Positions 39,010 to 60,723 of a stretch of 64,000 nt of DNA are shown here, piece by piece. A program made the translations under genes and the position numbers. Each line of letters starts with the position of its first letter. The stretch's first letter is position 1. The notes beneath the pieces were generated by a model. It did not search any database, was not told the DNA's origin, and saw nothing but the letters and a program-made list of their open reading frames with translations. Source of the stretch: Betaproteobacteria bacterium. GTDB taxonomy: Bacteria; Pseudomonadota; Gammaproteobacteria; Burkholderiales; SG8-41. The stretch covers positions 1-64,000 of the forward strand of contig JANYDM010000095.1 in NCBI GenBank assembly GCA_025363575.1. Direction: 5' to 3'.

Positions 39010-39049
39010 GATTGTCCGGACGAACCCCGCCTCCAACCAGATTGTCTTC

Positions 39050-40423: not shown

Positions 40424-41226
40424 CTGCGGCGCGTACGGCCTCGCTGCGGCGCGCGGCCTCAAACTTCGCTGCCGACGCGCACGTTGCGCTGCTATGCGAA
40501 GGCGTACGCATCGGCTGGCTGCGCAAGGCGCATGCGCAGCGCCTTATGGCGTGGCCGGATATTTTCAAGCGCGATGCGAATGGCGTGCGTATAGCTGAAA
40601 ATCTGACGGGTGCCGACGCCCGTAGCGCCGCGATCGACGGCGTCGTAAATGCGCTGCATGAGGAAGGCATGATTGCAGGCTGGCGCAACGAGCGCTATGC
40701 GGTCGTTACTGCGTTCGAAGCGCCGCCGCTGTTTCACATCGAGCGTGCCGCGGCGCGTTTCTTCGGCACTACGACTCATGCCGCGCACATGAACGGATAT
40801 TGCGGCACCGGCGCCAGTTGCGAAATGTGGCTCGCGCGCCGCGCGGCCACGAAGCCGATCGATCCCGGCATGCTGGATAATCTGGTCGGCGGTGGGATGT
40901 CCGCCGGCGTGCCGCCGCTGCAAACCATAATCCGCGAGGCGTGGGAAGAGGCGGGGATTCCGGCGGAACTGGCAGGCAAAGCAATCAGGGCCGGCGAGGT
41001 CCGCGTATTGCGCGTAGTGCCCGAAGGGGTGCAGTCCGAAACCATATTCGTTTTCGAACTCGAGCTTGTGCGCGAGTTTCGGCCGAAAAACATGGACGGC
41101 GAAGTTGCGGAATTCCAGCGTGTGCCGCTCGCGCAGGTCGAAGAGATGCTGGGCAGCCGCATGACGCTAGACGCGAGCCTTGTCGCGCTCGAATTTTTGG
41201 CGCGCCTTCACGATCCAGCGGCTTAA
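40402..41226 (+). CDS. Nudix hydrolase with DUF4743-like N-terminal domain
   Basis: A 274-aa protein if translation begins at the GTG at 40402, within the last codons of the aldehyde dehydrogenase; the ATG at 40324 would overlap that gene by 100 bases and is less likely. An N-terminal domain (VALLCEGVRIGWLRKAHAQ) matches the DUF4743 region found in Tnr3-like proteins. The Nudix box is complete: GGGMSAGVPPLQTIIREAWEEAGI with REXXEE, spanning about 20 residues. It hydrolyses a nucleoside diphosphate or thiamine diphosphate derivative. Its link to the gamma-glutamyl genes is unclear. Confidence 0.85.
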   Translation: MAPAVRVAAARTASLRRAASNFAADAHVALLCEGVRIGWLRKAHAQRLMAWPDIFKRDANGVRIAENLTGADARSAAIDGVVNALHEEGMIAGWRNERYAVVTAFEAPPLFHIERAAARFFGTTTHAAHMNGYCGTGASCEMWLARRAATKPIDPGMLDNLVGGGMSAGVPPLQTIIREAWEEAGIPAELAGKAIRAGEVRVLRVVPEGVQSETIFVFELELVREFRPKNMDGEVAEFQRVPLAQVEEMLGSRMTLDASLVALEFLARLHDPAA

Positions 41227-41248
41227 AGAGCCTATTGCAGATAAACTT

Positions 41249-42271
41249 CTAGTTGAGCCTGATCTTCACGGCGCTCATCAGTTTTTCCAGCTCGACGTAT
41301 TCGCGGTCGAACCGGGCCTTGAATTCCTCCGGTGTGGCCCGCACGGCGACTTCGGTGCCCTCGGCGGCGAGACTCTTTACCAGTTCCGATGCATTCATGC
41401 CTTCGCTTACGGCGGCGTTGACCGCGCGGATGATGGCGCGCGGCGTAGCGGCCGGCGCGTAATAACTGTAAGTATTGTGCAGCTCAAATCCGTCGATTAC
41501 CGTTTCGGAAATTGTCGGCAGGTCCGGATAGAGCGGCGAGCGCCGCAGGCTCGACATCGCCAGAGGCCTCACCTTCCCGCTGTTGAAATATGGACCTATG
41601 GTGGAGGTGCTCGTGAACACCAACTGGATCTGCGCGGCGAGCAATTCCATCAACGCGGGCACGGCTCCTTTGTATGGCACGTGTACGATGTTAATCCCGG
41701 CCAAGAGCTTGAGACGCTCCATGCCGATATGACCGGTCGTGCCCACTCCCTGCGATCCATAGCTGAGCGCGCCTGGCCTGCTTTTCGCATAGGCGACAAG
41801 TTCTTTGACCGACTTGAAGGGCGCCGCGGGATGGGTGATCAGGATATAGGGCTGCGTCGTCAGCTGTACGATTGGAACGAAAGCCCTGCGCACGTCGTAC
41901 GTGGCGCGCTTCAGCACGCCGTTCATCATAAGCGTCTCCGAAGCTGCCAGAAGTGTGTAGCCATCGGGCGGCGCCAGCGCCACGAGGTCCATCGCAACGA
42001 CCGTTCCGCCGCCCGGACGATTGTCCACGATAAACGTCTGGTTCAAGCGTTCGCTCAACTTTTGCGCGCCAAGCCGCGTCATCAGGTCGAGTCCTCCAGC
42101 GGGGGCGATCCCGACCACAATGCGCACTGATTTCTTTGGATAGTCGCCCGGTTTCTCCTGGGCATGTGTCGTGGCTGGAGCGGCTATTTGCGCGGAGAGC
42201 AATGCGCACAGCAAACAACGGGGTGATGAGTTACCCAGGAAGAACACGCCGCAACTAGTCTTCGTGCGCAA
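41249..42271 (-). CDS. Bug/TctC family receptor
   Basis: A 340-aa receptor with a signal peptide ending ATTHAQ and a slightly longer pre-domain (EKPGD) before YPKKSVRIVVG. FIVDNRPGGG, PDGYT and HVPYKGA are present. The start overlaps the 3' end of the upstream NYN gene by 17 bases, which suggests cotranscription, although functionally the pair makes little sense. The ligand is unknown. Confidence 0.88.
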   Translation of the reverse strand: MRTKTSCGVFFLGNSSPRCLLCALLSAQIAAPATTHAQEKPGDYPKKSVRIVVGIAPAGGLDLMTRLGAQKLSERLNQTFIVDNRPGGGTVVAMDLVALAPPDGYTLLAASETLMMNGVLKRATYDVRRAFVPIVQLTTQPYILITHPAAPFKSVKELVAYAKSRPGALSYGSQGVGTTGHIGMERLKLLAGINIVHVPYKGAVPALMELLAAQIQLVFTSTSTIGPYFNSGKVRPLAMSSLRRSPLYPDLPTISETVIDGFELHNTYSYYAPAATPRAIIRAVNAAVSEGMNASELVKSLAAEGTEVAVRATPEEFKARFDREYVELEKLMSAVKIRLN

Positions 42272-43085
42272 GCATGCGGATAATGTAGCCGCCGGATTTC
42301 TCGTCGCGCTCGAGTTTCAGCATGTGACGCGCCTGCGCTTCTTCGAGCAGCGCATTAAACGAGCGGAAGCCGTAGTAAGGCTCGTTGAAGCCCGGCTTGC
42401 GACGCTTCAGCGCCTGCTTGACCATCGAACCCCAGATTTTGCCGTCTTCGCCGCGCTCGGTGCCGAGCGCCTCTATCGTTTCAAGCGTGAGATCGAGCGC
42501 TTCCTGCTTCTTGTCGTCGTCGGATTTTTTCGGCGCGTCGGCGGGTTCCGCGGCGGCTTCCGACTTGGGGGCGGCTTTTTTCGGCGCTGCGCGACGGCGC
42601 GCGGGTTTCTCGCGCACGAGATCGTCGTAGAAAATGAATTCATCGCAGTTCGCGATCAGCAGGTCCGAGGTCGAATTCTTGACGCCGACGCCGATTACCG
42701 TCTTGTCGTTTTCGCGCAGCTTCGATACGAGCGGCGAAAAATCGGAATCGCCGCTGATGATGACGAACGCGTCGACGTGCGATTTGGTGTAGCAGAGGTC
42801 GAGCGCGTCGACCACCATCCTGATATCCGCGGAATTCTTGCCCGACATGCGCACGTGCGGGATTTCTATGAGTTCGAACGACGCTTCGTGCATCGCGCCC
42901 TTGAAGCTCTTGTAGCGGTCCCAGTCGCAGTAGGCCTTCTTGACGACGATGCTGCCCTTGAGCAGCAGGCGCTCGAGCACCTTGTCGATATCGAACTTCG
43001 CATACTTGGCGTCGGCGACGCCGAGCGCGACGTTCTCGAAATCGCAGAACAAAGCCATATTGGTAATGTCGGCTGGTGCAGCCAT
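42255..43085 (-). CDS. NYN-domain nuclease-like protein with C-terminal LOTUS/OST-HTH domain
   Basis: A 276-aa LabA/DUF88-type protein starting at ATG 43085. The PIN-like NYN domain shows the acidic residues in FCDFENVALG, KNSADIRMVVDAL and ISGDSDFSPLV, expected to bind metal for RNA cleavage. A Lys/Ala/Pro-rich linker (about residues 165-200) leads to a C-terminal winged-helix domain (MVKQALKRRKPGF, then GFRSFNALLEEA) of the OST-HTH/LOTUS type, probably RNA-binding. The start separates it by 92 bases from the phosphonate operon upstream. Confidence 0.88.
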   Translation of the reverse strand: MAAPADITNMALFCDFENVALGVADAKYAKFDIDKVLERLLLKGSIVVKKAYCDWDRYKSFKGAMHEASFELIEIPHVRMSGKNSADIRMVVDALDLCYTKSHVDAFVIISGDSDFSPLVSKLRENDKTVIGVGVKNSTSDLLIANCDEFIFYDDLVREKPARRRAAPKKAAPKSEAAAEPADAPKKSDDDKKQEALDLTLETIEALGTERGEDGKIWGSMVKQALKRRKPGFNEPYYGFRSFNALLEEAQARHMLKLERDEKSGGYIIRMLAHED

Positions 43086-43177
43086 GGTTGCTCCGTTGGT
43101 GGTGCCGGCGGCAGCGAGCGCCGCGGGCGAGCGGGCATTGTACGCGCCGGCGGCGCGGCTGTCTCCGTGCGCAGTGC

Positions 43178-43861
43178 CTAGCGCGGCGCGGCCAGCGGCA
43201 CCGACAAGAATACGCCGAACTCGGCGGCTAGGTTGCAGCTCACGCGCGCGTGCACCTTGCCCTGCTCGTCGTAGAAGCTCGCGCGTTCGGCGAGCGGGAA
43301 GACGGCTTCGTGCCACACGTTGGGATGAATATAGAGACCTTTGCCGGCGTCGACGTAGAACGCAACGAAGTCCTGCGGCTTCAAGTTGTCGCCGGGCAAT
43401 GCCAGCGGGCACACAAACGCATCGCTGTTCAGCGGGAAAAACAATTGCCCGCCATCGGGATGATAGTTTGCGTGCCACAGCAGCACGCGCTCATGGGTTG
43501 ACTTGCCGCTGGTTTTCGCAGCACCTGGATTTTTCGACCAGCCGAGCAGGTAATGCGAGCCCACCGCCTGGTTCTTGCCGTACAGCACGTCGCCTTCCCA
43601 CCAAAAATCAAATTGCCCTTGGGTGGTGCCGCCTTCGTTGCCGGTGCCGGGATCGCATTGCCGCCAGCCAGCCACCGGCCAAGTGACGATTTCTACCGGA
43701 TAGTTTCGACTGTGGTCGACGAGTTTGCCGTAGCCTTTGAGCGATTTCTCAGTCGCGCGCACCAGCGGCACTTCGTACCACGGCAGTACATCCGGTACGT
43801 CGGGCGCGAGGTAATCGGCGGCGGCGATTGCGTGCGATTTTTGTTGAAACTGCGTGGCCAC
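43178..43861 (-). CDS. AllA-like (ureidoglycolate lyase family) cupin in the phosphonate operon
   Basis: A protein of about 227 aa. The C-terminal half aligns by eye with E. coli AllA: a FVCPLALPGD strand, then KGLYIHPNVWHEAVFPL matching the family's GxxxHxNVWHxxxF. The N-terminal half (LPWYEVPLVRATEKSLKGYG, FDFWWEGDVLYGKNQAV) is an extension. The start is uncertain: GTG 43861, 11 bases after the phnW stop, is the best candidate because the upstream frame is only the shadow of phnW. No other allantoin genes are present, so ureidoglycolate is unlikely to be the substrate. Its place behind phnW suggests a role with AEP-derived compounds. Confidence 0.7.
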   Translation of the reverse strand: MATQFQQKSHAIAAADYLAPDVPDVLPWYEVPLVRATEKSLKGYGKLVDHSRNYPVEIVTWPVAGWRQCDPGTGNEGGTTQGQFDFWWEGDVLYGKNQAVGSHYLLGWSKNPGAAKTSGKSTHERVLLWHANYHPDGGQLFFPLNSDAFVCPLALPGDNLKPQDFVAFYVDAGKGLYIHPNVWHEAVFPLAERASFYDEQGKVHARVSCNLAAEFGVFLSVPLAAPR

Positions 43862-43872
43862 GATGAATTCGA

Positions 43873-45018
43873 TCAGGCGGCTACACGCGCTTTGGCGGCT
43901 GGCTTCAATTGCGTGATGCCCATCTCCTTGACGATGGCGGCAATGGCATCGACCGCTTGTTTCATTTCCGTTTCGCCGATGGCGCCTATGCAGCCGACGC
44001 GAAATGTTTCGACTTGGGTGAGCTTGCCGGGGTAAAGCGTGAAGCCGCGCTCGCGGACCTTGTCGTAGAACACGTTGAAGTTGTACTTGGGGTCGGACGG
44101 CGCGTGCCATGTGGTGATAATCGGCGCCTGGATAGCTCGCGGCAAAAATGACACGAATCCAAGCTTTTCCATTCCTCCGATCAGTGTCTCGCAATTCTTA
44201 CGGTAGCGCGCGCCGCGTCCCGCGACGCCGCCCTGCGCCTGGAACTGCTTGAGTGCTTCGGCGAGCGCCGCCACCACTGTCGTCGGCGGCGTAAAGCGCC
44301 ATTGCTTCGTGCGCTGATAGGCCTGCCACTGGTCGTAAAGGTCGAGCGACAGCGAATGACAGTTGCCCTTGCATTGCTCGAGCGCGGCTTTGCGCAGGAT
44401 CGCGAAGCCCATGCCGGGCACGCTTTCCAGGCATTTGCCGGAAGCCGCAACCACGCCATCGAAACGGATTTTGCGCGCATCGATGTCAAGTGCCCCGAAC
44501 GAGCTCATGGCGTCAATGAACAGCCCGCGGTTATACCTGGCGACGACGTCGGCGATTTCCTCGAGCGGGTTCAGGATGCCGGTGCTGGTTTCGCAATGCA
44601 CGATGGACACGTGCGTCAGCGATGGATCGGCGGCGAGTGCTTCATCGACCATTTTGGCGGTGGTCGGCTGGTCTTCGGCGGTCTGGAGCACTTTGTGCTT
44701 GCGCTGGACGATTTCGCAGATTTTCGCAATGCGTTTGCCGTATTCGCCGTTGATGCAGACTAGGACGCGGCCATCGCGGGGGATCAGCGTCCCCAATGCT
44801 GCTTCGACCGAAAAAGTGCCGCTCCCCTGCATCAGCACGCAAGCGTGATCTTCGCCGCCGTGGACGATATCGTTCAACTGGATTATGAGGCCTGCGGTCA
44901 TGTCAATGAACGCGATATCGCGCGAGCCGTAGTCGCGCAACTGCGCCTGCTTGGTCTGCAGCGTCGTGGTCAGCGGGCCGGGGGTGAGCAGAATGGGGTC
45001 TTTAGCGGTCATGATCAA
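43873..45018 (-). CDS. phnW: 2-Aminoethylphosphonate-pyruvate transaminase
   Basis: A PLP enzyme of 381 aa that converts 2-AEP and pyruvate to phosphonoacetaldehyde and alanine. It begins with the characteristic [21 protein letters not shown]. The PLP Lys lies in [15 protein letters not shown], and [11 protein letters not shown] binds the cofactor phosphate. [11 protein letters not shown] closes the fold. The start lies six bases after the permease stop in the same operon. The product would feed phnY on the divergent strand. Confidence 0.95.
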
Positions 45019-45024
45019 CTTTCC

Positions 45025-46746
45025 TTAAGTCTGTGCGGCCGGTCTACGCCAGGCCTGGGTCTTTGCTTCCAGAAAGCGGTTTAGCAGGTAGTACAAAAAA
45101 CAGGCGAACGAAGATGTAATCACGATCAGCGTTGCCATCGCAGTGGCCGGGCCGATTTCACCGGCCTCGTCCAGATTGAGTATCGCGAGCGCGGCCAGCA
45201 TCGTATCCGGCGAGTACAAAAATACGACCGCTGAGATAGTCGTCATCGCGTTGACGAAAAAATAGCGGCTGATGTCGAGGATCGCCGGCAGGCACACCGG
45301 TACGGTCACGACAAAAAAAGTCTTGAAGAACGGCACTTTCAGTGACGCCGAAACCGCTTCGAATTCAGTGTCGATCTGCTTTAACGCAGTGAGCGCTGTC
45401 AGGTGGCTCGAAGAATAATAGTGGACGATGGTGGAAATCACGAGAATCGCCATCGTGTGGTAGATGACGTTCAGCGGGTTCGCGGGGTGGTTGAAGAAAA
45501 ATATGAAGCCAAGGCCGAGCACCAGACCAGGCACGCCCATAGGCAGCACCGCGAACATGCGCAGCAGCGGCCGCAGCCAGTCGAGGCCGCGGGTTTTTTC
45601 GAGCAGGTAGGCGCACACGAAAACGAAGGCAGTGCCACCAGTGGCGCACCACAAGGCCATCTTGACGCTGTTCACATAGGCGTCGAAGATGCCGGCCTCG
45701 ACCAGCCCCATGCGATAGTGAGTCAGGCTGAAACTCAAATCGTACGGCCACAGTTTGATGAAGGACGCCCAAACCGCCATGCCCAGCACTGCGAGCATGA
45801 GTGCCGCCACCAGCCAGCAGAACGCCGCCATGGCGAAATCGAATCCGCGCGCGGGCTTGGGCGAGTAGGGCACCGAGCGCGCCGTGAGTTGCGCCTGCTG
45901 CCGGCGCTGCACCAGCATGTCGACAATATAAGTGATGAACACCGGGACCAGCAGCATGATGCTGACCACCGCGCCTTTGGCGAAATCCTGCTGGCCGATA
46001 ACGAGCTTGAAAATGTCCGTGGCCATCACGTTGAAGTTGCCGCCGATCACTTTCGGCACGCCGAAATCCGAGATCGCATAGGTGAATACCACCATTGCGG
46101 CGCTGATCAGGCCGTATTTCGCAGCGGGCAGGGTGATGGTGAAGAACTTGCGCAGCGTGCGCGTGCCCATCGAATCAGCGGCTTCGTAAAGTCGCGCGTC
46201 GGTCAGCGACAGCGCGGTGATCAATATCATCAGCGCGTGCGGAAACGTCGCGTAGACCAGCGACAACACGATGCCGCGCGCGCCGTAAATCTGGGTGTCG
46301 CCCATCCACGCCTTGAATGCGCCCTGGTTGCCGAACCAGTAAATGAATGAGATTGCCGACAGCAGCGATGGCGCCAGCAGCGGAATCAGCGCGATATTGC
46401 GCAGCAAAGTCTTGCACTGTATGCAGCTGCGCGTCAGCGCATAAGCAAATGTGAACGCCGCGGGCACCGTGATCAGCATCACCAGCCCCGACACCCACAC
46501 GCTGTTCCAGATCGATTGCGACAGGGCAGGTGTCTCAAAGTAAGCGATGAAATGGGCGAGCCCGACGTAGTTGCCGTCCGCGTCCTCGACGCTTTTCGAG
46601 GTGATCATGAAGATGGGCGCAAACACCGCGATGCCCAGCACAGTGCCCATCGCGAGAAGCACAATGTGGCCGATGCGCTCGGTCCAGTGCACGCGCTGCG
46701 TCACAGAGCGCGGCGGAACGATGGCGGGCGACAGTACGGCGCTCAT
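45025..46746 (-). CDS. Fused 2-AEP ABC transporter permease
   Basis: A 573-aa inner-membrane permease with two BPD_transp_1 domains in one chain (about residues 60-270 and 340-560), each with six or so helices, as in FbpB-like iron and phosphonate permeases. The EAA-type loops are seen around EAADSMGTRTLRKFFTITLP and FEAVSASLKVPFFKTFFVVT. It combines the functions of PhnU and PhnV. It lies between the ATPase and phnW with gaps of four and six bases. Confidence 0.92.
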   Translation of the reverse strand: MSAVLSPAIVPPRSVTQRVHWTERIGHIVLLAMGTVLGIAVFAPIFMITSKSVEDADGNYVGLAHFIAYFETPALSQSIWNSVWVSGLVMLITVPAAFTFAYALTRSCIQCKTLLRNIALIPLLAPSLLSAISFIYWFGNQGAFKAWMGDTQIYGARGIVLSLVYATFPHALMILITALSLTDARLYEAADSMGTRTLRKFFTITLPAAKYGLISAAMVVFTYAISDFGVPKVIGGNFNVMATDIFKLVIGQQDFAKGAVVSIMLLVPVFITYIVDMLVQRRQQAQLTARSVPYSPKPARGFDFAMAAFCWLVAALMLAVLGMAVWASFIKLWPYDLSFSLTHYRMGLVEAGIFDAYVNSVKMALWCATGGTAFVFVCAYLLEKTRGLDWLRPLLRMFAVLPMGVPGLVLGLGFIFFFNHPANPLNVIYHTMAILVISTIVHYYSSSHLTALTALKQIDTEFEAVSASLKVPFFKTFFVVTVPVCLPAILDISRYFFVNAMTTISAVVFLYSPDTMLAALAILNLDEAGEIGPATAMATLIVITSSFACFLYYLLNRFLEAKTQAWRRPAAQT

Positions 46747-46750
46747 GGCG

Positions 46751-47842
46751 TCATCCGGTTTTTGGGAAAACCCGTATGCTTTCGCCGGGGAGGCTCACGC
46801 GCACCGGCCGGCCGCGCTCGATATGGAATGTCTCCATGTCGCGCGGCGAGAAGTCGGCGATGACGAGCTGGGTTGCAATGCCGTCTACTTTGATGCCGAG
46901 CCGGCACATTGCGCCGAGAAACTCAATGTTCTCGATGCGTCCGGCAAACGAGCCGGGTGCTGCGTCGCCGGCGCCGCTCACCACCACGTCCTCAGGACGC
47001 AGAAATACAGTGACCTGAGTGCCGCTGCGGAAGTTGAGCCGGGTGCCGTTGGTGTGCAGACGCACGTCGCCGATTTCCAGGTCGGCTTCGCCGCGCACGA
47101 TCGCCGCCAGCATGTTGGTCTTGCCCACGAAATCCGCGACGAAAGGCGACGCAGGCTGGCGGTAAATTTCCATCGGCGTGCCGACCTGGTCGATGACGCC
47201 CTGATTCATGACGACTACGCGGTCGGCGATCGACAGCGCTTCTTCCTGGTCGTGGGTGACGAGTATCGTCGTCACGCCGAGACGCTGCTGCAGGTGGCGA
47301 ATTTCGCCGCGCAAACGCACGCGCACCTGCGCATCGAGCGCCGAGAGCGGCTCGTCGAGCAGCAGCAGGCCGGGCGACGTCGCAAGCGCGCGGGCGAGCG
47401 CGACGCGCTGCTGCTGGCCGCCCGACAACTGGCCCGGATATTTCGCGCCACTGTCGGCGAGACCGATCAGCGTCAGCAACTCAGCGACGCGCTGGCGGAT
47501 CGCTTCTTTCGCCAGCCGCCGGTTGACGAGCCCGTACGCGACGTTGTCGTAAATCGTGAGATTGGGGAAAAGCGCATAGGACTGAAAGACGATGCCGTAA
47601 TCGCGCATCATCGGCGGCAGCCGCGAAATGTCGCGGTCGTTTTGCATGATGGTGCCGCTGGTCTGCACTTCGAGGCCGGCGATGATCCGCAGCAGCGTGG
47701 TCTTGCCGCAACCCGAGGGACCGAGGAAGCACACGAGCTCGCCCTTGTTAATGGCGAGGCTCACGTCGTTCAACGCGGTGAAATCACCGAATTTCTTGAC
47801 GATATTTTCGATGCGCAGCGCGGCGGTGCCGTTGGCGGTCAT
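46751..47842 (-). CDS. phnT: 2-AEP ABC transporter ATP-binding protein
   Basis: A 363-aa ABC ATPase from ATG 47842. Walker A is GPSGCGKTT, the signature is LSGGQQQRVALARA, Walker B is LLLLDEPLSALD, and the H-loop is VTHDQEEAL. A C-terminal TOBE-like domain (VTVFLRPEDVVV) follows. It is of the spermidine/iron/phosphonate importer class. The gene symbol rests on the context with phnW/phnA/phnY. Confidence 0.9.
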   Translation of the reverse strand: MTANGTAALRIENIVKKFGDFTALNDVSLAINKGELVCFLGPSGCGKTTLLRIIAGLEVQTSGTIMQNDRDISRLPPMMRDYGIVFQSYALFPNLTIYDNVAYGLVNRRLAKEAIRQRVAELLTLIGLADSGAKYPGQLSGGQQQRVALARALATSPGLLLLDEPLSALDAQVRVRLRGEIRHLQQRLGVTTILVTHDQEEALSIADRVVVMNQGVIDQVGTPMEIYRQPASPFVADFVGKTNMLAAIVRGEADLEIGDVRLHTNGTRLNFRSGTQVTVFLRPEDVVVSGAGDAAPGSFAGRIENIEFLGAMCRLGIKVDGIATQLVIADFSPRDMETFHIERGRPVRVSLPGESIRVFPKTG

Positions 47843-47918
47843 GGCAGCAGGGTCACTCAAAAAACTGGCGCCGGGGAACGCTTGTTCCGCGACGCCAGCG
47901 ATTACTTCGCAGGTCGGC

Positions 47919-48944
47919 CTACTTCTCGGTCTTGGCTGAGTAGCGCTTCTGCCATTCGGCGAGTATCTTGTCGCGGTTCTTGGCCGCCCACGCAAAATCG
48001 TTCTTGACCATCAACTGCTCGTAATTTTCCGGAATGTTGGGCTGCGGCTTGGCGATGCCGGGCATCGCGACGACCTGCCACCAGCCGGCATACAGCTCGT
48101 TCGCTTCTTTGCTCGCAATCCAGTCCTGCAGCTTTTTCGCGGCTTCGAGCTTTTTGGTGGTCTTGACGATGCCGGTTGCTTCGATGTCCCAGCCCAGGCC
48201 TTCGCTCGGGAACACGAGCATGACGGGCGCGCCGGACTTTTTGACTTGCTGTGCCCGATATTCGAACGAGATGCCGACGACGAATTCGCCGGCGCCGGAC
48301 TGCCGGCAGGGCTTTGATCCGGAGTGCGTGTATTGCGCGATGTTCTCGTGCAGCGCGTCCATGTACTTCCAGCCGCCGTCTTCGCCCCACAACTGCAGCC
48401 ACGCGGTGGCGTCTAGAAAGCCGGTGCCGGAAGAGGATGGGGCCGGCATCGTGATCTGGCCTTTATAAACGGGTTTGGTCAGGTCTTTCCAGCTTTCCGG
48501 CCGTGGAATGCCGCGCTTGGCGGCTTCGACGACGTTGAAACAGACCGTTGCGCCCCACGCGTCCATGCCGACCCACGCCGGCACCGCCTTGGGATCGCTG
48601 TACTTGCGCGTGAGTTTTTCAAACCCTTTGGGTTTGTACGGCAGCAGCAATCCCTGCTGATCGAACACCATCATGCTGGTCGCCGCGACGCCCATGATGA
48701 CGTCGGCCTGGGGATTGGCTTTTTCGGCGAGCACTTTGGCGGTGATCACGCCGGTCGAGTCGCGCACCCATTTCAGCTCGATATTCGGCTCGATCTTGTT
48801 GAAACTGTCGGCGTACGCTTTCAACTGGTCGGTTTCGAGCGCCGTGTATACCAGCAACTGCGTTTTCTGCGCGCTGGCGACACCGGCAACCGTGGCGAGC
48901 AGCAACGCGCCAAGTGCTGCAAGCACAACCCTGACGTTTTTCAT
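47919..48944 (-). CDS. phnS: 2-AEP ABC transporter substrate-binding protein
   Basis: A periplasmic binding protein of 341 aa from ATG 48944, with the signal MKNVRVVLAALGALLLATVA and an ASAQ cleavage site. The FbpA-like fold shows LLVYTALETDQLKAYADSF and IELKWVRDSTGVITAKVLAE, then WVGMDAWGATVCFNV. It is the first gene of the uptake operon, read from the divergent promoter region 48945-49088. Ligand assignment to 2-AEP is by context. Confidence 0.9.
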   Translation of the reverse strand: MKNVRVVLAALGALLLATVAGVASAQKTQLLVYTALETDQLKAYADSFNKIEPNIELKWVRDSTGVITAKVLAEKANPQADVIMGVAATSMMVFDQQGLLLPYKPKGFEKLTRKYSDPKAVPAWVGMDAWGATVCFNVVEAAKRGIPRPESWKDLTKPVYKGQITMPAPSSSGTGFLDATAWLQLWGEDGGWKYMDALHENIAQYTHSGSKPCRQSGAGEFVVGISFEYRAQQVKKSGAPVMLVFPSEGLGWDIEATGIVKTTKKLEAAKKLQDWIASKEANELYAGWWQVVAMPGIAKPQPNIPENYEQLMVKNDFAWAAKNRDKILAEWQKRYSAKTEK

Positions 48945-49007
48945 TGAAGACTCCCTGTTTTTAGTGTGGTGATGCGTGCGCATGACGGATAGCTGCGGAA
49001 ATACTAT

Positions 49008-49021
49008 GTCATTTCAATGAC
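49008..49021. promoter_or_regulatory. Inverted repeat GTCATT-TC-AATGAC
   Basis: Six-base perfect arms with a two-base spacer between phnS and the GntR gene, 64 bases upstream of the phnS start. It differs in sequence from the 17-bp palindrome at 49048, so it may bind another regulator or belong to the phnS promoter. Confidence 0.4.
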
Positions 49022-49047
49022 GCCTGCATGACAACGTATTTTGCAGA

Positions 49048-49064
49048 TTGTAGACAATCTACAA
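49048..49064. promoter_or_regulatory. Probable GntR/FCD operator TTGTAGACAATCTACAA
   Basis: A perfect palindrome with 7-base arms TTGTAGA/TCTACAA and a three-base centre, in the 144-base gap between the divergent phnS and GntR genes, 25 bases before the regulator start. TTGT...ACAA palindromes are typical sites of FCD-type GntR regulators. It could control both transcripts. Binding by the adjacent regulator is inference. Confidence 0.65.
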
Positions 49065-49088
49065 ACAACGCAGTAGCATGTCAAGCCT

Positions 49089-51067
<1,979 letters not shown>

Positions 51068-51076
51068 GGAAAGTCC

Positions 51077-52534
51077 ATGGCTATTGCCGCGCAACGCAAA
51101 CAGGCATCCGACATCAGGCAAGAAGGCATGCGTATAGGCGGCGAGAAAATCCTGCGCGAGCGCGTGATAGAAGTCCTCAATCCGTACACGGAGCAAGTCA
51201 TCGCGACCGTGCCAAAAGCAACCGTCGAGGATATCAAGCGTGCGTTTGCGATTGCCAAAAGCTACAAGGCGAAGCTCACGCGTTATGAGCGCGCCAATAT
51301 CCTGAACCGCGCGGCTGAACTCATGCGTGCCCGAACCGACGAGCTGTCGGATCTGATTACGACTGAATGCGGCATCTGCAAGAAGGATTCACTCTACGAA
51401 GTCGGCCGGGCATGCGACGTCATGAATTTTGCCGCTGGCCAGGCGCTGATCGACGACGGCCAGGTTTTTTCGTGCGACCTGACGCCCCACGGCAAGAAGC
51501 GCCGCGTGTACACGCAGCGCGATCCGCTGCTCGGCGCAATCAGCGCGATCACGCCGTTCAATCACCCGCTGAACCAGGTCGCGCACAAGGTTGCGCCGTC
51601 GGTGGCTACCAATAACCGCATGGTGTTGAAGCCGACCGAAAAAACGCCGTTGTCGGCCATTGTGCTCGCGGATATTCTGTATGAGGCGGGTCTGCCGCCG
51701 GAGATGTACCAGGTCGTCACCGGTGATCCGAAAGAGATCGCCGATGAGATGCTGACCAATCCGGACGTTGACCTGATCACGTTCACGGGCGGCGTGCCGA
51801 TCGGCAAGTACATCGCATCGAAAGCGGGCTACAAACGCATGGTGCTGGAGCTCGGCGGCAATGATCCGCTCATCGTCATGGAAGACGCGGACATCGAAGA
51901 AGCCGCGTCGCTGGCGGTCGCGGGCTCTTACAAGAATTCCGGTCAACGCTGTACTGCCGTCAAGCGCATGCTGGTGCACGAAAAAGTCGCGGACGATTTC
52001 GTGGCGCGCGTGGTGGCGAAGACCAAAGCGTGGTCGTACGGCGATCCGATGGACGGCAAGCTCGACATGGGCACAGTTATCGACGAGCCGGCGGCGAAAT
52101 CGTTCGAGGACAAGGTCAACGCGGCGGTCAAGGATGGCGCGATGCTGCTTGTCGGCAATGTCCGCCGCGGCGCATCGTATTCTCCGACGGTGCTCGATCA
52201 CGTGCAGCCGGAAATGCCCCTCGTGAAATACGAGACCTTCGGGCCGGTGTCGCCGATTATCCGCTTCAAGGACATTGACGACGCGATCCGCATTTCGAAC
52301 TCGACCGCGTACGGGCTGTCGTCGGGCGTGTGCACAAACCGGCTCGATTACATCACGCGTTTCATTTCTGAGCTCAATGTCGGTACGGTCAACGTGCGCG
52401 AGGTGCCGGGTTACCGCATCGAGCTTACCCCGTTCGGCGGCATCAAGGATTCCGGTCTCGGTTACAAAGAGGGCGTGCAGGAAGCGATGAAAAGCTTTAC
52501 CAACGTCAAAACCTATTCGTTGCCGTGGGTGTGA
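51077..52534 (+). CDS. phnY: Phosphonoacetaldehyde dehydrogenase
   Basis: A 485-aa NAD-dependent aldehyde dehydrogenase that oxidises phosphonoacetaldehyde to phosphonoacetate. The catalytic Glu lies in [11 protein letters not shown], the catalytic Cys in [12 protein letters not shown], and [12 protein letters not shown] and [11 protein letters not shown] are typical. The function is assigned from the tight phnA-phnY arrangement and the phnW gene opposite; without that context it would be called a succinate-semialdehyde-type ALDH. Confidence 0.93.
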
Positions 52535-52566
52535 GGTTGCGCGCGGCGAGAGCGGAGGATTGCTAG

Positions 52567-54264
52567 TTGCAGGTACTGCTTAATCTGCTCGCCGGCGTAG
52601 CGCTGCTCGTTTGGGGCACCCACCTCGTGCGCACCGGCATCATGCGCTCGTGGGGCGGCCAGCTGCGCCGGGTGCTCGGCGTGAGCACCAGCAACCGGTT
52701 TCACGCATTTCTCGCCGGCATCGGCGTGACCGGCCTCCTCCAGAGCAGCACCGCGACTGCGCTCATCACTACGTCTTTCGTCGGGCAGGGATTGATCGCG
52801 ACGGCGCCGGCGCTGGCGATCATGCTAGGCGCCGATGTCGGCACCAGCCTGGTCGTGCAATTGCTATCGATCAATCTTTCGTGGCTGTGGCCGTTGCTTA
52901 TTTTTTCAGGCGTCGTGATCTACCTTTCACGCGAGCATGCGCCGGCGGGCCGCGTCGGCCGCATCCTCATCGGTTTCGGGCTCATCCTGCTCGCGCTGCA
53001 GCTGATCGTGCTCGCGGCCAAGCCGCTGACGGAGGCGGCGTCCGTTAAAGTCCTGTTTGCATCGGTGACGGGCGATGTGCTTCTCGATATGCTGATCGCC
53101 GCGGGACTGACGGTCCTGTGCTATTCCAGCCTGGCGGTTGTGCTGCTGACCGCGACGCTCACTGCCGCGGCTATGATCTCCGCGGACGTCGCGCTCGGGC
53201 TGGTGCTGGGCGCCAATCTCGGCAGCGGCGTGCTTGCCATACTGGCGACGCTGCATTCAAGCCCGGAGGCGCGTCGCGTCGCTCTCGGCAATTTCTTTTT
53301 CAAGCTGACGGGTTGCGTGCTGATGCTGCCGCTGCTGCACTGGGTGGGCGGCTGGCTCGCTGCCCTGGATCCGAGCCCGCAACGCCAGGTCGTCAATTTT
53401 CACCTGGCGTTCAACCTGGCGATCGCGCTGGCATTCATCGGCTTTACCGAGCGTTTCGCGCGCCTCGCCGAAGGCGTGCTGCCGTCCAACCCTGAACAGG
53501 ACAGCCCGGGCAAGCCGCGCTATCTCGATCCGGTGGCGCTGGAGACGCCGGCGCTTGCCGTTGCATGCGCCGCGCGCGAAGCGCTGCGGCTGGGCGACAT
53601 GATAGAGCGCATGCTGCGCGGCACGCTGACGGTGCTGCGCAATAACGACCTGAAGCTCGCGGGCGACATCCGTCGCATGGACGACGAGGTCGACGATCTA
53701 TACACCGCGATCAAGCTCTACCTTACGCAGATGAGCCGCGATGCGCTCGAAGAAAAAGAGGCGCGGCGCTGGGCCGACATCATTTCCTTCATCATCAATC
53801 TCGAGCATGTCGGCGACATCATCGACAAGAACCTGCTGGAAATCGCCGAAAAGAAGATCCGCAAGAACCAGGAGTTCTCCGCCGTCGGCATGCAGGAAAT
53901 CTGCGAATTGCATGCGCGCGTGCTCGCCACCCTGCAGCTCGGGCTCAACGTATTCATCGACTCCGACCTGCGCAGCGCGCAGCGCCTGATTTCGGAGAAG
54001 GAGCAGTTTCGCACGCTCGAGCGTGCTTACGCCGACAGCCATTTGCAGCGGCTGGTCGACAACAAGCTGTCGAGCATAGAAACCAGCGCGCTGCACCTTG
54101 ACATCATTCGCGATCTGAAGCGCATCAATTCGCACATCTGCTCGATTGCTTATCCGATCCTCGAGGCCGCCGGCGTGCTTGCACCAACGCGCCTGCGCGA
54201 GCGCAGCCCCCTTAACGCCGCGCCGCTCGATTCCGTGCTGAACGGCGACTCGCCCAAGATATAG
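52567..54264 (+). CDS. Na/Pi cotransporter family protein with PhoU-like domain
   Basis: A 565-aa NptA-type membrane protein. It carries the two inverted halves with the QSST motif (TGLLQSSTATALITTSF) and a diverged second motif (TVLCYSSLAVVLLTATLT, where the Gln-Ser is Tyr-Ser). A C-terminal cytosolic PhoU-like helical domain covers about residues 350-540. TTG is the start, with GGAGG eight bases before it. Coming directly after phnA-phnY, it probably moves or exports the phosphate released by PhnA, which is inference. Confidence 0.9.
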   Translation: MQVLLNLLAGVALLVWGTHLVRTGIMRSWGGQLRRVLGVSTSNRFHAFLAGIGVTGLLQSSTATALITTSFVGQGLIATAPALAIMLGADVGTSLVVQLLSINLSWLWPLLIFSGVVIYLSREHAPAGRVGRILIGFGLILLALQLIVLAAKPLTEAASVKVLFASVTGDVLLDMLIAAGLTVLCYSSLAVVLLTATLTAAAMISADVALGLVLGANLGSGVLAILATLHSSPEARRVALGNFFFKLTGCVLMLPLLHWVGGWLAALDPSPQRQVVNFHLAFNLAIALAFIGFTERFARLAEGVLPSNPEQDSPGKPRYLDPVALETPALAVACAAREALRLGDMIERMLRGTLTVLRNNDLKLAGDIRRMDDEVDDLYTAIKLYLTQMSRDALEEKEARRWADIISFIINLEHVGDIIDKNLLEIAEKKIRKNQEFSAVGMQEICELHARVLATLQLGLNVFIDSDLRSAQRLISEKEQFRTLERAYADSHLQRLVDNKLSSIETSALHLDIIRDLKRINSHICSIAYPILEAAGVLAPTRLRERSPLNAAPLDSVLNGDSPKI

Positions 54265-54274
54265 ATTGCCGCCG

Positions 54275-54829
54275 ATGACGCTGCAGGAAATTCAGTTGCT
54301 GTTCGATGCCGGCGGCGGCCGCCGATACAGCGGCGAAGCGGTCACCCAGCTCGAGCATGCGCTGCAAAGCGCGCAGCTTGCAGAAAAAGCGGGCGCCGGC
54401 AACGAGCTCATCACGGCCTGCCTGCTGCATGATTTCGGCCACCTGGCGAACGACGAAGGCGACACACCCACGCTGCGCGGAGTCGACGACCGTCATCAGT
54501 ATTACGGGGTGAGCGCTTTGAAAAACCTGTTCGGCCCGCCGGTGCTGACGCCGATCCGGCTGCATGTCGACGCGAAACGTTATTTGTGCGCGACGGAAGA
54601 GCGTTATTACGCCGGCTTGTCGGAGGATTCGAAACGCAGTCTCGATTTGCAAGGCGGCGCGTACAGTGCGACGGAAGCGGCGACGTTCATAGCACAGCCG
54701 CACGCGCTGGATGCTGTGAGGCTGAGGCGCTGGGACGACGAGGCAAAAGTCAGCGGTTGCCGCACACCGGATCTCGCGCATTACCTGGCCATTGCTGCTG
54801 CGTGCGCGAAGGCTACACCGGCAGCATGA
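54275..54829 (+). CDS. PhnZ-type HD-domain mixed-valent diiron oxygenase
   Basis: A 184-aa HD-domain protein of the phosphonate-degradation type. Residues matching PhnZ are visible with a constant offset: Tyr18 and Glu21 (GRRYSGEAV), His28, the HD pair His52-Asp53 (LLHDFGH), His74 (DDRHQYYG), His97 and Lys101 (IRLHVDAKRYL). PhnZ cleaves 1-hydroxy-2-aminoethylphosphonate to glycine and phosphate. Its usual partner, a 2-oxoglutarate dioxygenase, is absent here. TTG 54266 is an alternative start. Either it uses ready-made hydroxy-AEP or it has another phosphonate substrate. Confidence 0.87.
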   Translation: MTLQEIQLLFDAGGGRRYSGEAVTQLEHALQSAQLAEKAGAGNELITACLLHDFGHLANDEGDTPTLRGVDDRHQYYGVSALKNLFGPPVLTPIRLHVDAKRYLCATEERYYAGLSEDSKRSLDLQGGAYSATEAATFIAQPHALDAVRLRRWDDEAKVSGCRTPDLAHYLAIAAACAKATPAA

Positions 54830-54857
54830 TGGATTCGAAGCCGGGCCAAGCGGGGCA

Positions 54858-55703
54858 ATGATTTTGCCGCTCGATGTTACGCTGCTGGTGCTGCTGGCGG
54901 CGCTGATGCATGCGTCGTGGAACGCGATCGCGAAATCGGCTGCCAACAAGCTGCTCGACATTACGACCATGGCGCTGGCGGGCGGCGCCATGTGCGCGCT
55001 CGCGCTGCCTTTCCTGCCTGTGCCCGAACCCGAGGCCTGGCCGTGGCTGGCGGCATCGTTGCTGCTGCATTTCCTGTATTTCATGGCCCTAGTGGGCGCC
55101 TATAACCGGGCCGACCTGTCGCACGCCTATCCGCTGATGCGCGGGGTCGCGCCGTTGCTCGTTGCGGTATTCGGCGCGCTGCTCCTGGACGAGGGACTGA
55201 CGGCGAAAATGTGGGTCGGCATCGCGCTGATCAGCAGCGGTATCCTGCTGCCATTCTGGCTGAGCGCCGGCAACAAGAAGACGCTCTTCCGGAGATCCGG
55301 TTTCGCGCTCGCCAATGCGGCCATCATCGCGGCGTATACGCTGGTCGACGGATTCGGCACGCGCCTGTCCGCTAATGCGCTCAGCTATTGTCTGTGGCTG
55401 TTTCTGCTCGACCCGCTGCCTATCCTCGCCGTTGCGCTCGCGCGCCACGGCAGTGGCGTGTGGCTGCATCTGCGCCGCCGCTGGCTCGCGTGCACGGTGG
55501 GCGGTGCGCTAACCGTGCTCGCGTACGGCATCGTTCTGTGGGCGATGACGCGTGCGCCTATCGCGGCGGTTTCCGCGTTGCGCGAGACTTCGGTGATTTT
55601 CGCCGCCCTCATCGGCGCCGTGTTTTTGCGCGAAGGATTCGGGCCATGGCGCATTGCCGGCGCCGTGCTGGTCGCGGGCGGGATCGCCGCGCTCAGGCTG
55701 TAG
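54858..55703 (+). CDS. EamA/DMT membrane protein of the phosphonate-utilisation type
   Basis: A 281-aa inner-membrane protein with about ten helices in two EamA-like halves, starting MILPLDVTLLVLLAALMHASWNAIAKSAA at 54858. It contains FMALVGAYNRADLSHAYPLMRGVAPLL and ends in a second copy of the fold (SALRETSVIFAALIGAVFLRE). Proteins of this kind recur in phosphonate operons, and a transport role for an aminophosphonate or a product is likely. It closes the plus-strand phosphonate operon and overlaps the end of the convergent MFS gene by 11 bases. Confidence 0.85.
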   Translation: MILPLDVTLLVLLAALMHASWNAIAKSAANKLLDITTMALAGGAMCALALPFLPVPEPEAWPWLAASLLLHFLYFMALVGAYNRADLSHAYPLMRGVAPLLVAVFGALLLDEGLTAKMWVGIALISSGILLPFWLSAGNKKTLFRRSGFALANAAIIAAYTLVDGFGTRLSANALSYCLWLFLLDPLPILAVALARHGSGVWLHLRRRWLACTVGGALTVLAYGIVLWAMTRAPIAAVSALRETSVIFAALIGAVFLREGFGPWRIAGAVLVAGGIAALRL

Positions 55704-56919
55704 TGGGGGCGGCGGCCTTGCGCTCGATCTGGCGATCGTCGATCGGGTAATTGAGGATGGCGGCGAGCACGCCCATGCCTATCGTCAGCATCCACATCAG
55801 GCGGTAGGAGCCGGTCGCATCGAACAGATAGCCGGCGATGCCGACGCCGAAGAAGCTGCCGATCTGGTGGAACAGAAAAGCGATGCCGGTGAGTGTCGAC
55901 AGATAGCGCACGCCGAAGATCTGCGCGATGACGCCGCTCGTCAGCGGGACAGTGCCCAGCCACAGGAAACCGATGGCAGCGCCGAACAGGCCGACGGACC
56001 ACGGGGTCACCGGCAGCGAAATGAAAATCGCGATCACGATCGCGCGCGTCAAGTAGAGCGTGCTCAGCAGATATTTTTTCGTGTAGCGCCCGCTCAGCCA
56101 GCCCCAGAAATAACTGCCGAAGATATTGAACAGCCCGATCAGCGCGAGCGCCATCACGCCGGTTTCGGGCGCCATGTGCTGATCGACCATATAGGCGGGG
56201 AAGTGGACGGATATGAACATCAGCTGGAAGCCGCACACGGTGTACGCGATGCACAGAAGCCAGTAGCCGCCGTGGCTGAGCGCTTCACGCAAAGCTTCCG
56301 GTATTGACTGCTTGAACTGCCCCGGCTCAGGTGCTGCACGTTTTTCGGAGAGCGCCGTGGACAACGGCACGACCATGAGTACCGTCAGCGCCAACGCCAG
56401 CAGTGCGTAGTGCCAGCCGATATGCGTGATCAGCTGCTGTGCGTAGGGCAGCATGACGAACTGCCCGAACGAGCCCGCCGCGCCGGCGAGTCCCAGCGCA
56501 ACGCTGCGCTTTTCAACCGGAAACGCGCGCGCGATAACGCCGTACACGATGCTGAATCCGACGCAGGCCAGCGCGATGCCGACGACGATGCCCGCGCTCA
56601 ATCCGAATGCGAGCCCGCTGGTGGAATTCGCCATCAGCACGAGCCCGATCGCGTAGAGCACCGCGCCGCACGCCATCACGCGGCTCGCGCCGTGTCTGTC
56701 CGCAATCATGCCGGTCACGGGCTGCGCGAGTCCATACACGAGGTTTTGGATCGCGATCGCAAATGAGAACGTCTGCCGTCCCCAGTCGAGGTCGGACGTC
56801 ATCGGCTGCAGAAACAGGCCGAAAGAATGGCGCGCGCCGAGCGCGATGGTGAGCGCCACGCCGCCGCATAGCAGTATGACGGCGGGCGTGCGCCAGTTTT
56901 TAGCGGGAGTCGCAGTCAA
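55693..56919 (-). CDS. MFS transporter, OFA/monocarboxylate-like
   Basis: A 408-aa permease with 12 predicted helices. ALGARHSFGLFLQPMTSDLDWGRQTFSFAIA at helix 1-2 and GMIADRHGASRVMACG at loop 2-3 are typical of the oxalate/formate antiporter-like MFS branch. The second half has GWLSGRYTKKYLLSTLYL. Its 3' end overlaps the phosphonate DMT gene by 11 bases in convergent orientation. Substrate is probably an organic anion; not certain. Confidence 0.87.
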   Translation of the reverse strand: MTATPAKNWRTPAVILLCGGVALTIALGARHSFGLFLQPMTSDLDWGRQTFSFAIAIQNLVYGLAQPVTGMIADRHGASRVMACGAVLYAIGLVLMANSTSGLAFGLSAGIVVGIALACVGFSIVYGVIARAFPVEKRSVALGLAGAAGSFGQFVMLPYAQQLITHIGWHYALLALALTVLMVVPLSTALSEKRAAPEPGQFKQSIPEALREALSHGGYWLLCIAYTVCGFQLMFISVHFPAYMVDQHMAPETGVMALALIGLFNIFGSYFWGWLSGRYTKKYLLSTLYLTRAIVIAIFISLPVTPWSVGLFGAAIGFLWLGTVPLTSGVIAQIFGVRYLSTLTGIAFLFHQIGSFFGVGIAGYLFDATGSYRLMWMLTIGMGVLAAILNYPIDDRQIERKAAAPTTA

Positions 56920-56946
56920 AATGGCTCGATCGTAGCAAGCGCGGGA

Positions 56947-57651
56947 TCACGCCTTCAGCGTGAACGGGTTGAAGTCCGTGTTGCGGTCGTAGTAGTCCTC
57001 ACTCTCGGCGCGCTTGAGCCAGCCGACTATCTTGTACGTGAGCGGCGTGAAGACGATTTCGACGCCGACTTTGACGACGAATTGCGACAACATCACGAGC
57101 GGCAGCTTGTCATTGGGGATGATGCCGGTATCGTAAAAGGCAAGCGGGTAGAACAGCAGCGAGTCGATGCCTTCGCCGAAGATCGTCGAGCCTATCGTGC
57201 GCGTCCACAACCAGCGCCCGGCGGTGGCGATTTTCATCTTGGCGAGCACGAACGAATTGACGAATTCCCCGCAGACGAATGCGACCAGCGATGCCGTCGC
57301 GATGCGCCACGTCGAGCCGAACGCGATTTCGTAGGCGCCCTGGTTGTGCCAGAACGGCGCCGGCGGCAGCTTGACGACGACCCATGCCATGAGGGCGGCG
57401 AACGCGAGGGCCGCGAAACCCGTCCAGATCACGCGGCGCGAGCGCGCGTAGCCGTAGACCTCGGTCAGCACGTCGCCGAATACATAGGAAATCGGAAAGA
57501 ACAAAACGCCGGCGCCGAAGGTCAAAGTGCCGACCAGCGGCCAGTCGAGTTGCGCGATCTTGGCCGGTCCGATCAGATTGGAGCAGACCAGTATGGTGAC
57601 AAACGCCACCATTACGTAGTCGTAGTAGCGATAGGTGCGTGGCTGTGACAT
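56947..57651 (-). CDS. Queuosine precursor transporter, YhhQ/VUT family
   Basis: A 234-aa inner-membrane protein of the VUT_1 family, which imports 7-cyano- or 7-aminomethyl-deazaguanine for tRNA modification. Typical are the early VCSNLIGPAKIA, LFFPISYVFGDVLTEVYGYARSRRVIW, and GEGIDSLLFYPLAF with the conserved charged residues. It has about six helices. A member of a housekeeping group unrelated to the phosphonate island. Confidence 0.9.
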   Translation of the reverse strand: MSQPRTYRYYDYVMVAFVTILVCSNLIGPAKIAQLDWPLVGTLTFGAGVLFFPISYVFGDVLTEVYGYARSRRVIWTGFAALAFAALMAWVVVKLPPAPFWHNQGAYEIAFGSTWRIATASLVAFVCGEFVNSFVLAKMKIATAGRWLWTRTIGSTIFGEGIDSLLFYPLAFYDTGIIPNDKLPLVMLSQFVVKVGVEIVFTPLTYKIVGWLKRAESEDYYDRNTDFNPFTLKA

Positions 57652-57778
57652 GAAAAGCAGAGTTTAGGAACGTTGAGATTCGTATTAGGCCATATCCGGC
57701 GCTGCGCGCAAACTGTATGTAAGCGGGCGGGCCGGCAACGCGTTATGAACTGTCAAACTGAAGAAAGCGGTAACGACC

Positions 57779-58276: not shown

Positions 58277-58345
58277 TTGCGGGAAGGGCGGCGGGACACT
58301 GCTAATGGCATGTTAAACTGCCGCGACTATTTAAAGCCGCATGCC

Positions 58346-59149: not shown

Positions 59150-59205
59150 GGATCCAGGATTGAGGGTTGAGTAGTTCTGCCTTAACCCTCAATCCGCAAT
59201 CCTGA
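59150..59205. terminator. Inverted repeat of the GGATTGAG family
   Basis: CAGGATTGAGGGTTGA (59155-59170) faces TTAACCCTCAATCCGCAATC (from 59182), between the convergent MlaF-like and lplT genes. The arms match over about 14 bases with one mismatch. Fits a bidirectional terminator. It shares the word CCTCAATCC with repeats at 33144 and 61642. Confidence 0.55.
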
Positions 59206-59209
59206 GCCG

Positions 59210-60472: not shown

Positions 60473-60723
60473 GAAGGGGATGCGTGCCCTCTTATATGAG
60501 GCGAACTTTATACCATAGTTTGCGGCGGGGGCGTTGGAGCCGGCCTGTGCCGTCCATGACTTCGCTGGCGAATTGTGGTTGAATACCAGCCGGATTTCGG
60601 GGGAGGAGTGAAGAGCGTCGAGCGAAGCATGAAGAACAGAAGCCGCAAACTTTTGCTGCCAGAATTCGCGGCGGTTTTGCAGCCGCCGCTCTTCTCGCAT
60701 GTTCCGCCGCCTTTCACCATACG

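Follow-up and report, generated by a model that had tools for sequence, protein, structure and literature searches.

The locus described here raises the question of whether a set of genes for the use of 2-aminoethylphosphonate (AEP), the commonest natural phosphonate, works as one module, and what the genes beyond the simple degradation pathway might contribute. It lies in 64,000 nucleotides from a Betaproteobacteria bacterium (contig JANYDM010000095.1, positions 1 to 64,000, forward strand; assembly GCA_025363575.1), a stretch that is called the window here. At window positions 43178-55703 we found eleven open frames in two divergent operons. The leftward operon runs in the order PhnS2, PhnT2, PhnU2, PhnW and an AllA-like cupin, and the rightward one in the order GntR regulator (phnR_burk type, PhnR), PhnA, PhnY, a sodium/phosphate (Na/Pi) cotransporter fused to a PhoU-like domain, an HD-domain oxygenase (HD) and a DMT transporter. 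Nine of the eleven genes scored above curated NCBIfam cut-offs, and the DMT and AllA-like genes were placed by Pfam; the eleven genes, their order and their strands, as the initial annotation had given them, are borne out by these matches and the open frames. We consider it likely that the island is an aminophosphonate mineralisation module, which would include a side branch through the HD oxygenase, phosphate export, control by PhnR through a palindrome, and the AllA-like protein as an accessory metalloenzyme.

The core of the module is the best-defined part. PhnW, PhnY and PhnA, all encoded in the island, each scored above the cut-off of their own equivalog model, and the alignments of PhnA with the solved phosphonoacetate hydrolase 1ei6 and of PhnY with aldehyde dehydrogenase 4i3t were nearly full-length. 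The route of these families leads from AEP through phosphonoacetaldehyde and phosphonoacetate to acetate and phosphate; here PhnW would carry out the first conversion, PhnY the oxidation and PhnA the final split. With the cut-offs exceeded and solved relatives matched, the earlier proposal of this full route is right as far as can be told from sequence, and its list of accessory genes is correct within the same bounds. AEP would enter the cell through the PhnS2-T2-U2 ATP-binding cassette (ABC) transporter, whose three parts all scored above cut-off within the single operon, under NCBIfam names that say "putative". Among the matches listed for PhnS2 were six solved relatives, none of them named as an AEP binder.

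The same arrangement was found when we looked for the gene set in other genomes. Betaproteobacteria bacterium GR16-43 (locus L105) carries PhnW-U2-T2-S2 divergent from PhnR-A-Y-NaPi-HD, and a Burkholderiales metagenome-assembled genome (MAG; L106) carries PhnW-U2-T2-S2 divergent from PhnR-A-NaPi-HD-DMT, so that near-identical islands exist in the former and, minus PhnY, in the latter. A set whose order is repeated in further genomes is far from what chance would give, and the order shared by L105 and L106 marks the island as a recurring module. In both genomes the AllA-like gene, unlike that of the window, lies elsewhere (L006, L068), and in the L105 region there was no DMT match over 60 bits. 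The closest relative fetched was L001, a Betaproteobacteria MAG apparently from a lake, with 87% identity for the AllA-like protein and 94% for PhnW.

The space between the two operons holds GATTGTAGACAATC, a perfect 6+6 inverted repeat that ends 29 bp before the phnR start. At up to one mismatch it has a single match in the window, with 0.08 expected and 6 of 100 shuffles having one. Like the gene order, the palindrome is shared by L105 and L106, where GATTGTTGACAATC, with one central base changed, stands at the same intergenic site. The core ATTGTNNACAAT occurred in 5 of 124 loci, namely these two plus bare core matches in L043, L054 and L080. We propose the palindrome as a candidate PhnR operator; PhnR would bind it and control both operons.

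The AllA-like gene is the surprising component of the island. The mechanical frame (43178-44194) would place its start at 44194, which was rejected because the gene would then run into phnW. More likely it begins with the GTG at 43861, 11 bp downstream of phnW, giving 227 residues, and the closest homologues have 226-240. The protein scored 37.4 bits against PF04115 (cut-off 23) over about 65 residues (65 of 162 positions), whereas it reached at most 30 bits against the five ureidoglycolate-lyase NCBIfam models listed, with cut-offs of 160-275. Among 5406 candidates, 4777 were homologues at E <=1e-3, and the 120 listed were mostly of 215-240 residues. The structure model had a predicted local distance difference test score (pLDDT) of 85.7, and the top five Foldseek rows were all AllA or putative ureidoglycolate hydrolases, the best being 2bdr (E 1.5e-8, template modelling (TM) score 0.54 on the query), 1xsq (5.5e-8) and 1yqc (7.3e-7). 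Residues H134, Q139 and H184 align with H74, Q79 and H124 of AllA, and N132 replaces E72. Together with H204, R206 and E214, these four residues were invariant in 81 of 81 sequences (the window and 80 loci), partly by construction in the case of N132, H134 and E214, which were contained in the search patterns. The cupin therefore shares the fold and the aligned H/Q/H set with the ureidoglycolate lyase AllA, while it is about 60 residues longer, has N132 for E72 and falls under every lyase cut-off listed. The label "AllA-like" of the initial annotation holds for the fold and the PF04115 match and not for the ureidoglycolate-lyase models, and the protein represents a distinct PF04115 family.

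Related cupins widen the range of chemistry to be considered. AllA itself is a nickel-dependent lyase (PMC3793230). DsyD, the 4-dimethylsulfonio-2-hydroxybutyrate (DMSHB) decarboxylase domain of DsyGD, is a related cupin, and two single-domain DsyD-like proteins showed no DMSHB decarboxylase activity (PMC11306096). DsyD, likened here by description, and DUF4867/SqvB have AllA-type folds and act, or are proposed to act, on hydroxyacids or sugars (PMC11306096, PMC11968277); the DUF4867 structure 9gyy was a weaker Foldseek match to the window cupin, with a TM score of just 0.42. A DsyD-like decarboxylation of phosphonolactate to phosphonoacetate was considered and not adopted, no supporting context having been found for it. 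A literature search judged by titles and the starts of abstracts, with subscription papers mostly outside its reach, did not link a ureidoglycolate-lyase-type protein to phosphonate catabolism, and the word "ureidoglycolate" is absent from the main texts of PMC12366243, PMC8154272 and PMC10574752.

We then looked at the neighbours of this gene in other genomes. Scanning with no query but the AllA-like alignment yielded 174 confirmed places, and the counts below refer to the best 80. Flanks of up to 10 kb were fetched, many contigs being short; hidden Markov model scans were run on the genes of L044, L036 and L067, and the other loci were placed by tblastn with these or the window proteins. Neighbour genes were called as longest frames, which are sometimes shadow frames (neighbour cluster 2 is one), and high-level groups were assigned from record titles. 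A phosphonate gene lay within the fetched flank at 14 of the 80 loci, the base rate for such neighbourhoods being unmeasured. These neighbours are PhnW (L001, L013), PhnW with HD and a PhnX-like protein (L044), HD with a PhnX-like protein (L018), PhnU2 (L022, L055), PhnS2-T2-U2 (L060, L075), a PhnX-like protein with a TIGR03364-type flavin adenine dinucleotide (FAD) oxidase (L002, L024, L036), and TmpA with HD at 7-9 kb (L046, L067, L072, three loci that may be one event). The PhnX-like protein of L044 scored 201 bits, below the model cut-off of 219. Same-strand phosphonate neighbours within two genes were seen in Beta-, Gamma- and Deltaproteobacteria, Cyanobacteria and Bacteroidota. The Bacteroidota loci (L013, L018, L024, L036, L044) hold between them a TonB receptor, a phosphodiesterase, calcineurin-like phosphoesterases, PhoX, DUF5690, a PhnX-like protein, an FAD oxidase, and PhnW or HD, and are apparently islands for scavenging phosphonates and phosphate esters.

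A second line of evidence comes from whole genomes. HD was called at E <=1e-20 in four samples, which we take, from the organism of each centre genome, to be Burkholderiaceae, Chitinophagales, a cyanobacterial order and Cytophagales; kinship was uncorrected throughout, and many records are MAGs. HD was present in 23 of 23 full-score carriers of the AllA-like gene, mostly unlinked: the two genes shared a contig in five of the 23 and were adjacent only in G004. The Burkholderiaceae sample (AllA-like 7/150, both genes 7/7, p 0.025) is uninformative, HD being present in 90 of its 150 genomes. Among Chitinophagales, by comparison, 12 of 198 genomes had the AllA-like gene and 40 had HD (20 over the family cut-off), and all 12 carriers had HD (8 over cut-off; p 1e-9). 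PhnW scored over cut-off in 19 of the 198 and in 8 of the 12 carriers (p 6e-7). As a side observation, all 19 of these PhnW genomes also have HD at E <=1e-20, which suggests that PhnW is almost always accompanied by HD in this order. In the cyanobacterial sample the AllA-like gene (>400 bits) occurred in 3 of 195 genomes and HD in 14, with HD, once as a partial match, in all three carriers (p 3e-4). Eight cyanobacterial genomes with weak matches (105-123 bits, about 206 residues) were left out as another PF04115 subfamily; none had an HD match, and counting them gives 3/11. This second, shorter subfamily showed one in-frame TAA at each of G017:C15, G446:C3 and G529:C4. The Cytophagales sample (AllA-like at E <=1e-40) had one carrier in 194 genomes and HD in 32, with both in the one carrier. 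Eight of the 23 carriers had been seen before this test; without them the counts are 15/15 overall and 8/8 for Chitinophagales (p 7e-7).

Direct searches of carrier genomes gave HD matches in 15 of 20 and 39 of 50, or 54 of 70, with 22 over the family cut-off. The threshold for the set of 20 was 1e-3, and all 15 best matches were <1e-59; L018, L044 and L067 had been chosen for that set with a nearby HD gene already known. In the set of 50, two HD matches were fragments. The 70 genomes leave ten of the 80 loci unsearched, and 14 of them are also in the four samples. Forty HD regions from carriers were fetched and probed. In Bacteroidota, genes of the PhnX-like, DUF5690 or FAD-oxidase kind were often next to HD (L127, L129, L131, L134 and L144 are examples), which in alphaproteobacteria was found in clusters with PhnW, PhnA and PhnY (L109, L114, L142, L143). 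TmpA homologues adjoin HD in L109, L114, L115, L138 and L139, in the first two beside PhnW, PhnA and PhnY. In 13 of the 28 regions listed, HD was the sole gene recognised among the query proteins.

The strongest competing explanation is that the AllA-like gene has no phosphonate role and is a ureide or pyrimidine enzyme that landed beside phnW by chance, its link with HD reflecting shared lifestyle or kinship. Its fold is that of AllA, and eight alphaproteobacterial loci have an M20 hydrolase upstream of the gene in the same orientation. In five of these (L010, L014, L016, L020, L026) the AllA-like gene directly follows the M20 gene; in the other three (L012, L015, L021) its immediate predecessor is an NMT1-type ABC transporter, with the M20 hydrolase and PreT/PreA-type genes ahead of that, the loci beyond L012 and L020 having been placed by clustering with one or the other. 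The M20 protein scored 687 bits against the allantoate amidohydrolase subfamily model (cut-off 452) and 265 against the AllC equivalog, under its cut-off of 598. L012 (2136-13189) has PreA, a PreT-type protein, dihydropyrimidinase, the NMT1-type transporter and a carbamoylputrescine-amidase-like protein as neighbours; the same neighbour clusters recur in L015 and L021 and, in part, in L031. The uninformative Burkholderiaceae count and the uncorrected kinship also suit this explanation. On the other side, the same-strand phosphonate neighbours in five groups speak against chance placement, and among the Chitinophagales carriers allantoicase (15/198 in the sample) was found in 0 of 12 as against 12 of 12 for HD, a partial test, since chance also gives zero (0.9 expected, p 0.38) and ureidoglycolate has other sources. 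We regard this explanation as doubtful but a real possibility.

Several observations weigh against the module as we propose it. No phosphonate marker was found near the AllA-like gene at 66 of the 80 loci, many of them on short contigs, and in Sneathiella-type alphaproteobacteria the gene lies in or beside pyrimidine- or ureide-type genes. These two observations speak against an exclusive phosphonate role, as does the absence of an HD match in 16 of the 70 carriers, including the genomes of L001, L055, L060, L074 and L075. In L106 (6674-9567) the Na/Pi gene directly follows PhnA, with no PhnY in the cluster. At up to one mismatch the palindrome is absent from L107, a Paraburkholderia region, and has 0 matches in L006 around the unlinked AllA-like gene, so that its use as a sign of co-regulation of that gene is unsupported. 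Among the neighbour families common to at least two high-level groups, not all are phosphonate genes: the others include ABC-F, Suf Fe-S, enoyl-CoA hydratase, RNase PH and glyoxalase-like families, an ABC ATPase family that also takes in PhnT2 of L060 and L075, and the M20 cluster, whose one betaproteobacterial member (L068) is 30% identical and 7 kb away.

Taken together, these results tie the uncharacterised AllA-like family to phosphonate catabolism as an accessory, repeatedly though not exclusively, and the cupin would be an accessory metalloenzyme of aminophosphonate metabolism. The activity we would guess at first resembles that of AllA: the opening of a hydrate or adduct formed by a short aldehyde-acid, which here would be phosphonoacetaldehyde. 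In the Sneathiella-type loci the substrate would perhaps be malonic semialdehyde derived from beta-alanine. The guess builds on the fact that pyrimidine breakdown of this kind usually yields beta-alanine, whose structure is that of AEP with a carboxylate in place of the phosphonate.

The HD oxygenase would form a side branch of the module, cleaving (R)-1-hydroxy-AEP (R-HAEP), imported along with AEP, to glycine and phosphate. In the alignment with PhnZ (4mlm) the stretches YxGEA..Q.EH, LLHD.GH, HV.AKRYL and WD are kept, which presumably contain the ligand residues. PMC8154272 connects the PhnZ-type gene with R-HAEP breakdown. In all 12 loci (L081-L092) taken from the best of the 90 HD-positive Burkholderiaceae-sample genomes, phnY directly adjoins the HD gene. 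A PhnY* hydroxylase partner was not found among the eleven island genes, most of the remaining window being unscanned. It is somewhat unlikely that the protein acts instead on another 1-hydroxyphosphonate, such as hydroxymethylphosphonate or an N-methylated one. Its bit score does favour TmpB (6npa, 112) over PhnZ (97), and PMC11203657, which describes "PhnHD" genes of the TIGR03276 family next to phosphonatase operons and lacking PhnY*, calls the functions of such proteins a conundrum. Yet its scores with the TmpB and hydroxymethylphosphonate models, 154 and 164 bits, are well under their cut-offs of 300, while that of TIGR03276 is exceeded, and R-HAEP use would account for the finding that phnZ and pbfA, both taken to handle R-HAEP, occur together in none of the phnWAY clusters of PMC8154272.

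There is also a more far-reaching reading, which we hold to be a long shot: the cupin would be a new, widely spread phosphonate-catabolic enzyme and the missing partner of PhnHD, supplying the 1-hydroxyphosphonate as a metal-dependent AEP hydroxylase or a 1-hydroxy-AEP epimerase. If true, it would answer why TIGR03276 oxygenases so often lack PhnY*. Against it, the converse association fails, 28 of the 40 Chitinophagales HD genomes having no AllA-like gene, and some carriers have a TmpA-like hydroxylase beside HD.

The Na/Pi-PhoU protein, with two PF02690 and two PF01895 stretches in Pfam, occupies the same position in L105 and L106. It is most simply, and probably, a phosphate exporter, because cells using AEP as nitrogen source release phosphate (PMC8316502) and a Na/Pi cotransporter that promotes phosphate efflux, YjbB, is known (PMC11389368); the island protein would export the surplus phosphate that arises when AEP serves as carbon or nitrogen source. 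That it imports phosphate or merely signals phosphate status is improbable: it matches TIGR01013, "sodium-dependent inorganic phosphate transporter", at 279 bits, under the cut-off of 306, but import makes little sense where the operon itself releases phosphate, and YjbB is a known exporter of this family. A literature search for phosphonate phnW/phnA genes combined with a cotransporter found no paper. The DMT protein follows the HD gene in L106 as well.

Table 1 Features of the phosphonate island in the window.
Feature	Position	Strand	Basis
AllA-like cupin, PF04115 family, 227 aa, GTG start, last gene of leftward operon	43178..43861	-	
phnW, 2-aminoethylphosphonate:pyruvate transaminase; start inferred, longest frame to 45018	43873..45012	-	NF010006 541 bits (cut-off 296); best solved relative 7e7g, E 1e-150
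PhnU2, fused ABC permease	45025..46746	-	TIGR03262 800 bits (cut-off 593)
PhnT2, ABC ATPase; start inferred, longest frame to 47995	46751..47842	-	TIGR03265 527 bits (cut-off 458), match from residue 58 of longest frame
PhnS2, periplasmic AEP-binding protein; start inferred, longest frame to 48983	47919..48944	-	TIGR03261 507 bits (cut-off 393)
Palindrome GATTGTAGACAATC, candidate PhnR operator, between operons	49046..49059	.	Inverted repeat
GntR/FCD regulator, phnR_burk type	49089..49835	+	TIGR03338 294.5 bits (cut-off 271.5); PF07729, PF00392
phnA, phosphonoacetate hydrolase	49832..51067	+	TIGR02335 597 bits (cut-off 408); 1ei6, E 3e-173
phnY, phosphonoacetaldehyde dehydrogenase	51077..52534	+	TIGR03250 873 bits (cut-off 636); 4i3t, E 1.5e-181
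Na/Pi cotransporter fused to PhoU-like domain, probable phosphate exporter	52567..54264	+	TIGR00704 292 bits (cut-off 210); PF02690 + PF01895
HD-domain diiron phosphonate oxygenase (PhnHD / PhnZ-like)	54266..54829	+	TIGR03276 236.1 bits (cut-off 214.6)
DMT (EamA) membrane transporter	54858..55703	+	PF00892

The genes flanking the island are unrelated to it, with NYN, TctC and Nudix on one side and MFS and Vut_1 on the other. Window positions 38975-43133 encode an aldehyde dehydrogenase, a Nudix/DUF4743 protein, a TctC receptor and the NYN protein, and positions 55693-60700 encode an MFS protein, Vut_1, a LEA_2 domain protein, an ABC ATPase and a second MFS protein. A search across the window found no tRNAs and no RNA families above gathering score.

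Accessory enzymes decide which AEP relatives serve bacteria as a phosphorus source. PhnHD without a hydroxylase partner is an acknowledged puzzle (PMC11203657), for which a cupin conserved in several phyla is a concrete candidate; also, among the database proteins named "ureidoglycolate lyase" is a large family whose function may be a different one. Like the window protein, the PhnHD of Achromobacter is an HD oxygenase whose adjoining phosphonate operon has no PhnY*, but the cluster there belongs to the PhnX type and carries HpnW in place of PhnW (PMC11203657). Closer to the window island are published phnWAY clusters with a phnZ-like gene, which have the same three enzymes and the HD oxygenase (PMC8154272, Table 1); the window adds the Na/Pi-PhoU protein, the DMT protein and the AllA-like cupin. 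Its regulator is of the GntR type, while the S. meliloti cluster has been treated in connection with LysR regulators. The initial annotation had held that the PhnZ-type gene, the phosphate carrier and the AllA-like gene take the island beyond the simple pathway. A survey of 19,425 complete genomes counted 75 phnWAY clusters, 24 of them with a phnZ homologue (PMC8154272), so that the PhnZ-type gene is already published and was rejected as a source of novelty; the phosphate carrier recurs in two relatives, and the claim stands for the AllA-like gene. Overall, this is a known kind of island, well formed and carrying an extra set of genes that recurs elsewhere; its PhnW-PhnY-PhnA route is not new, and only the AllA-like gene exceeds what was found in print.

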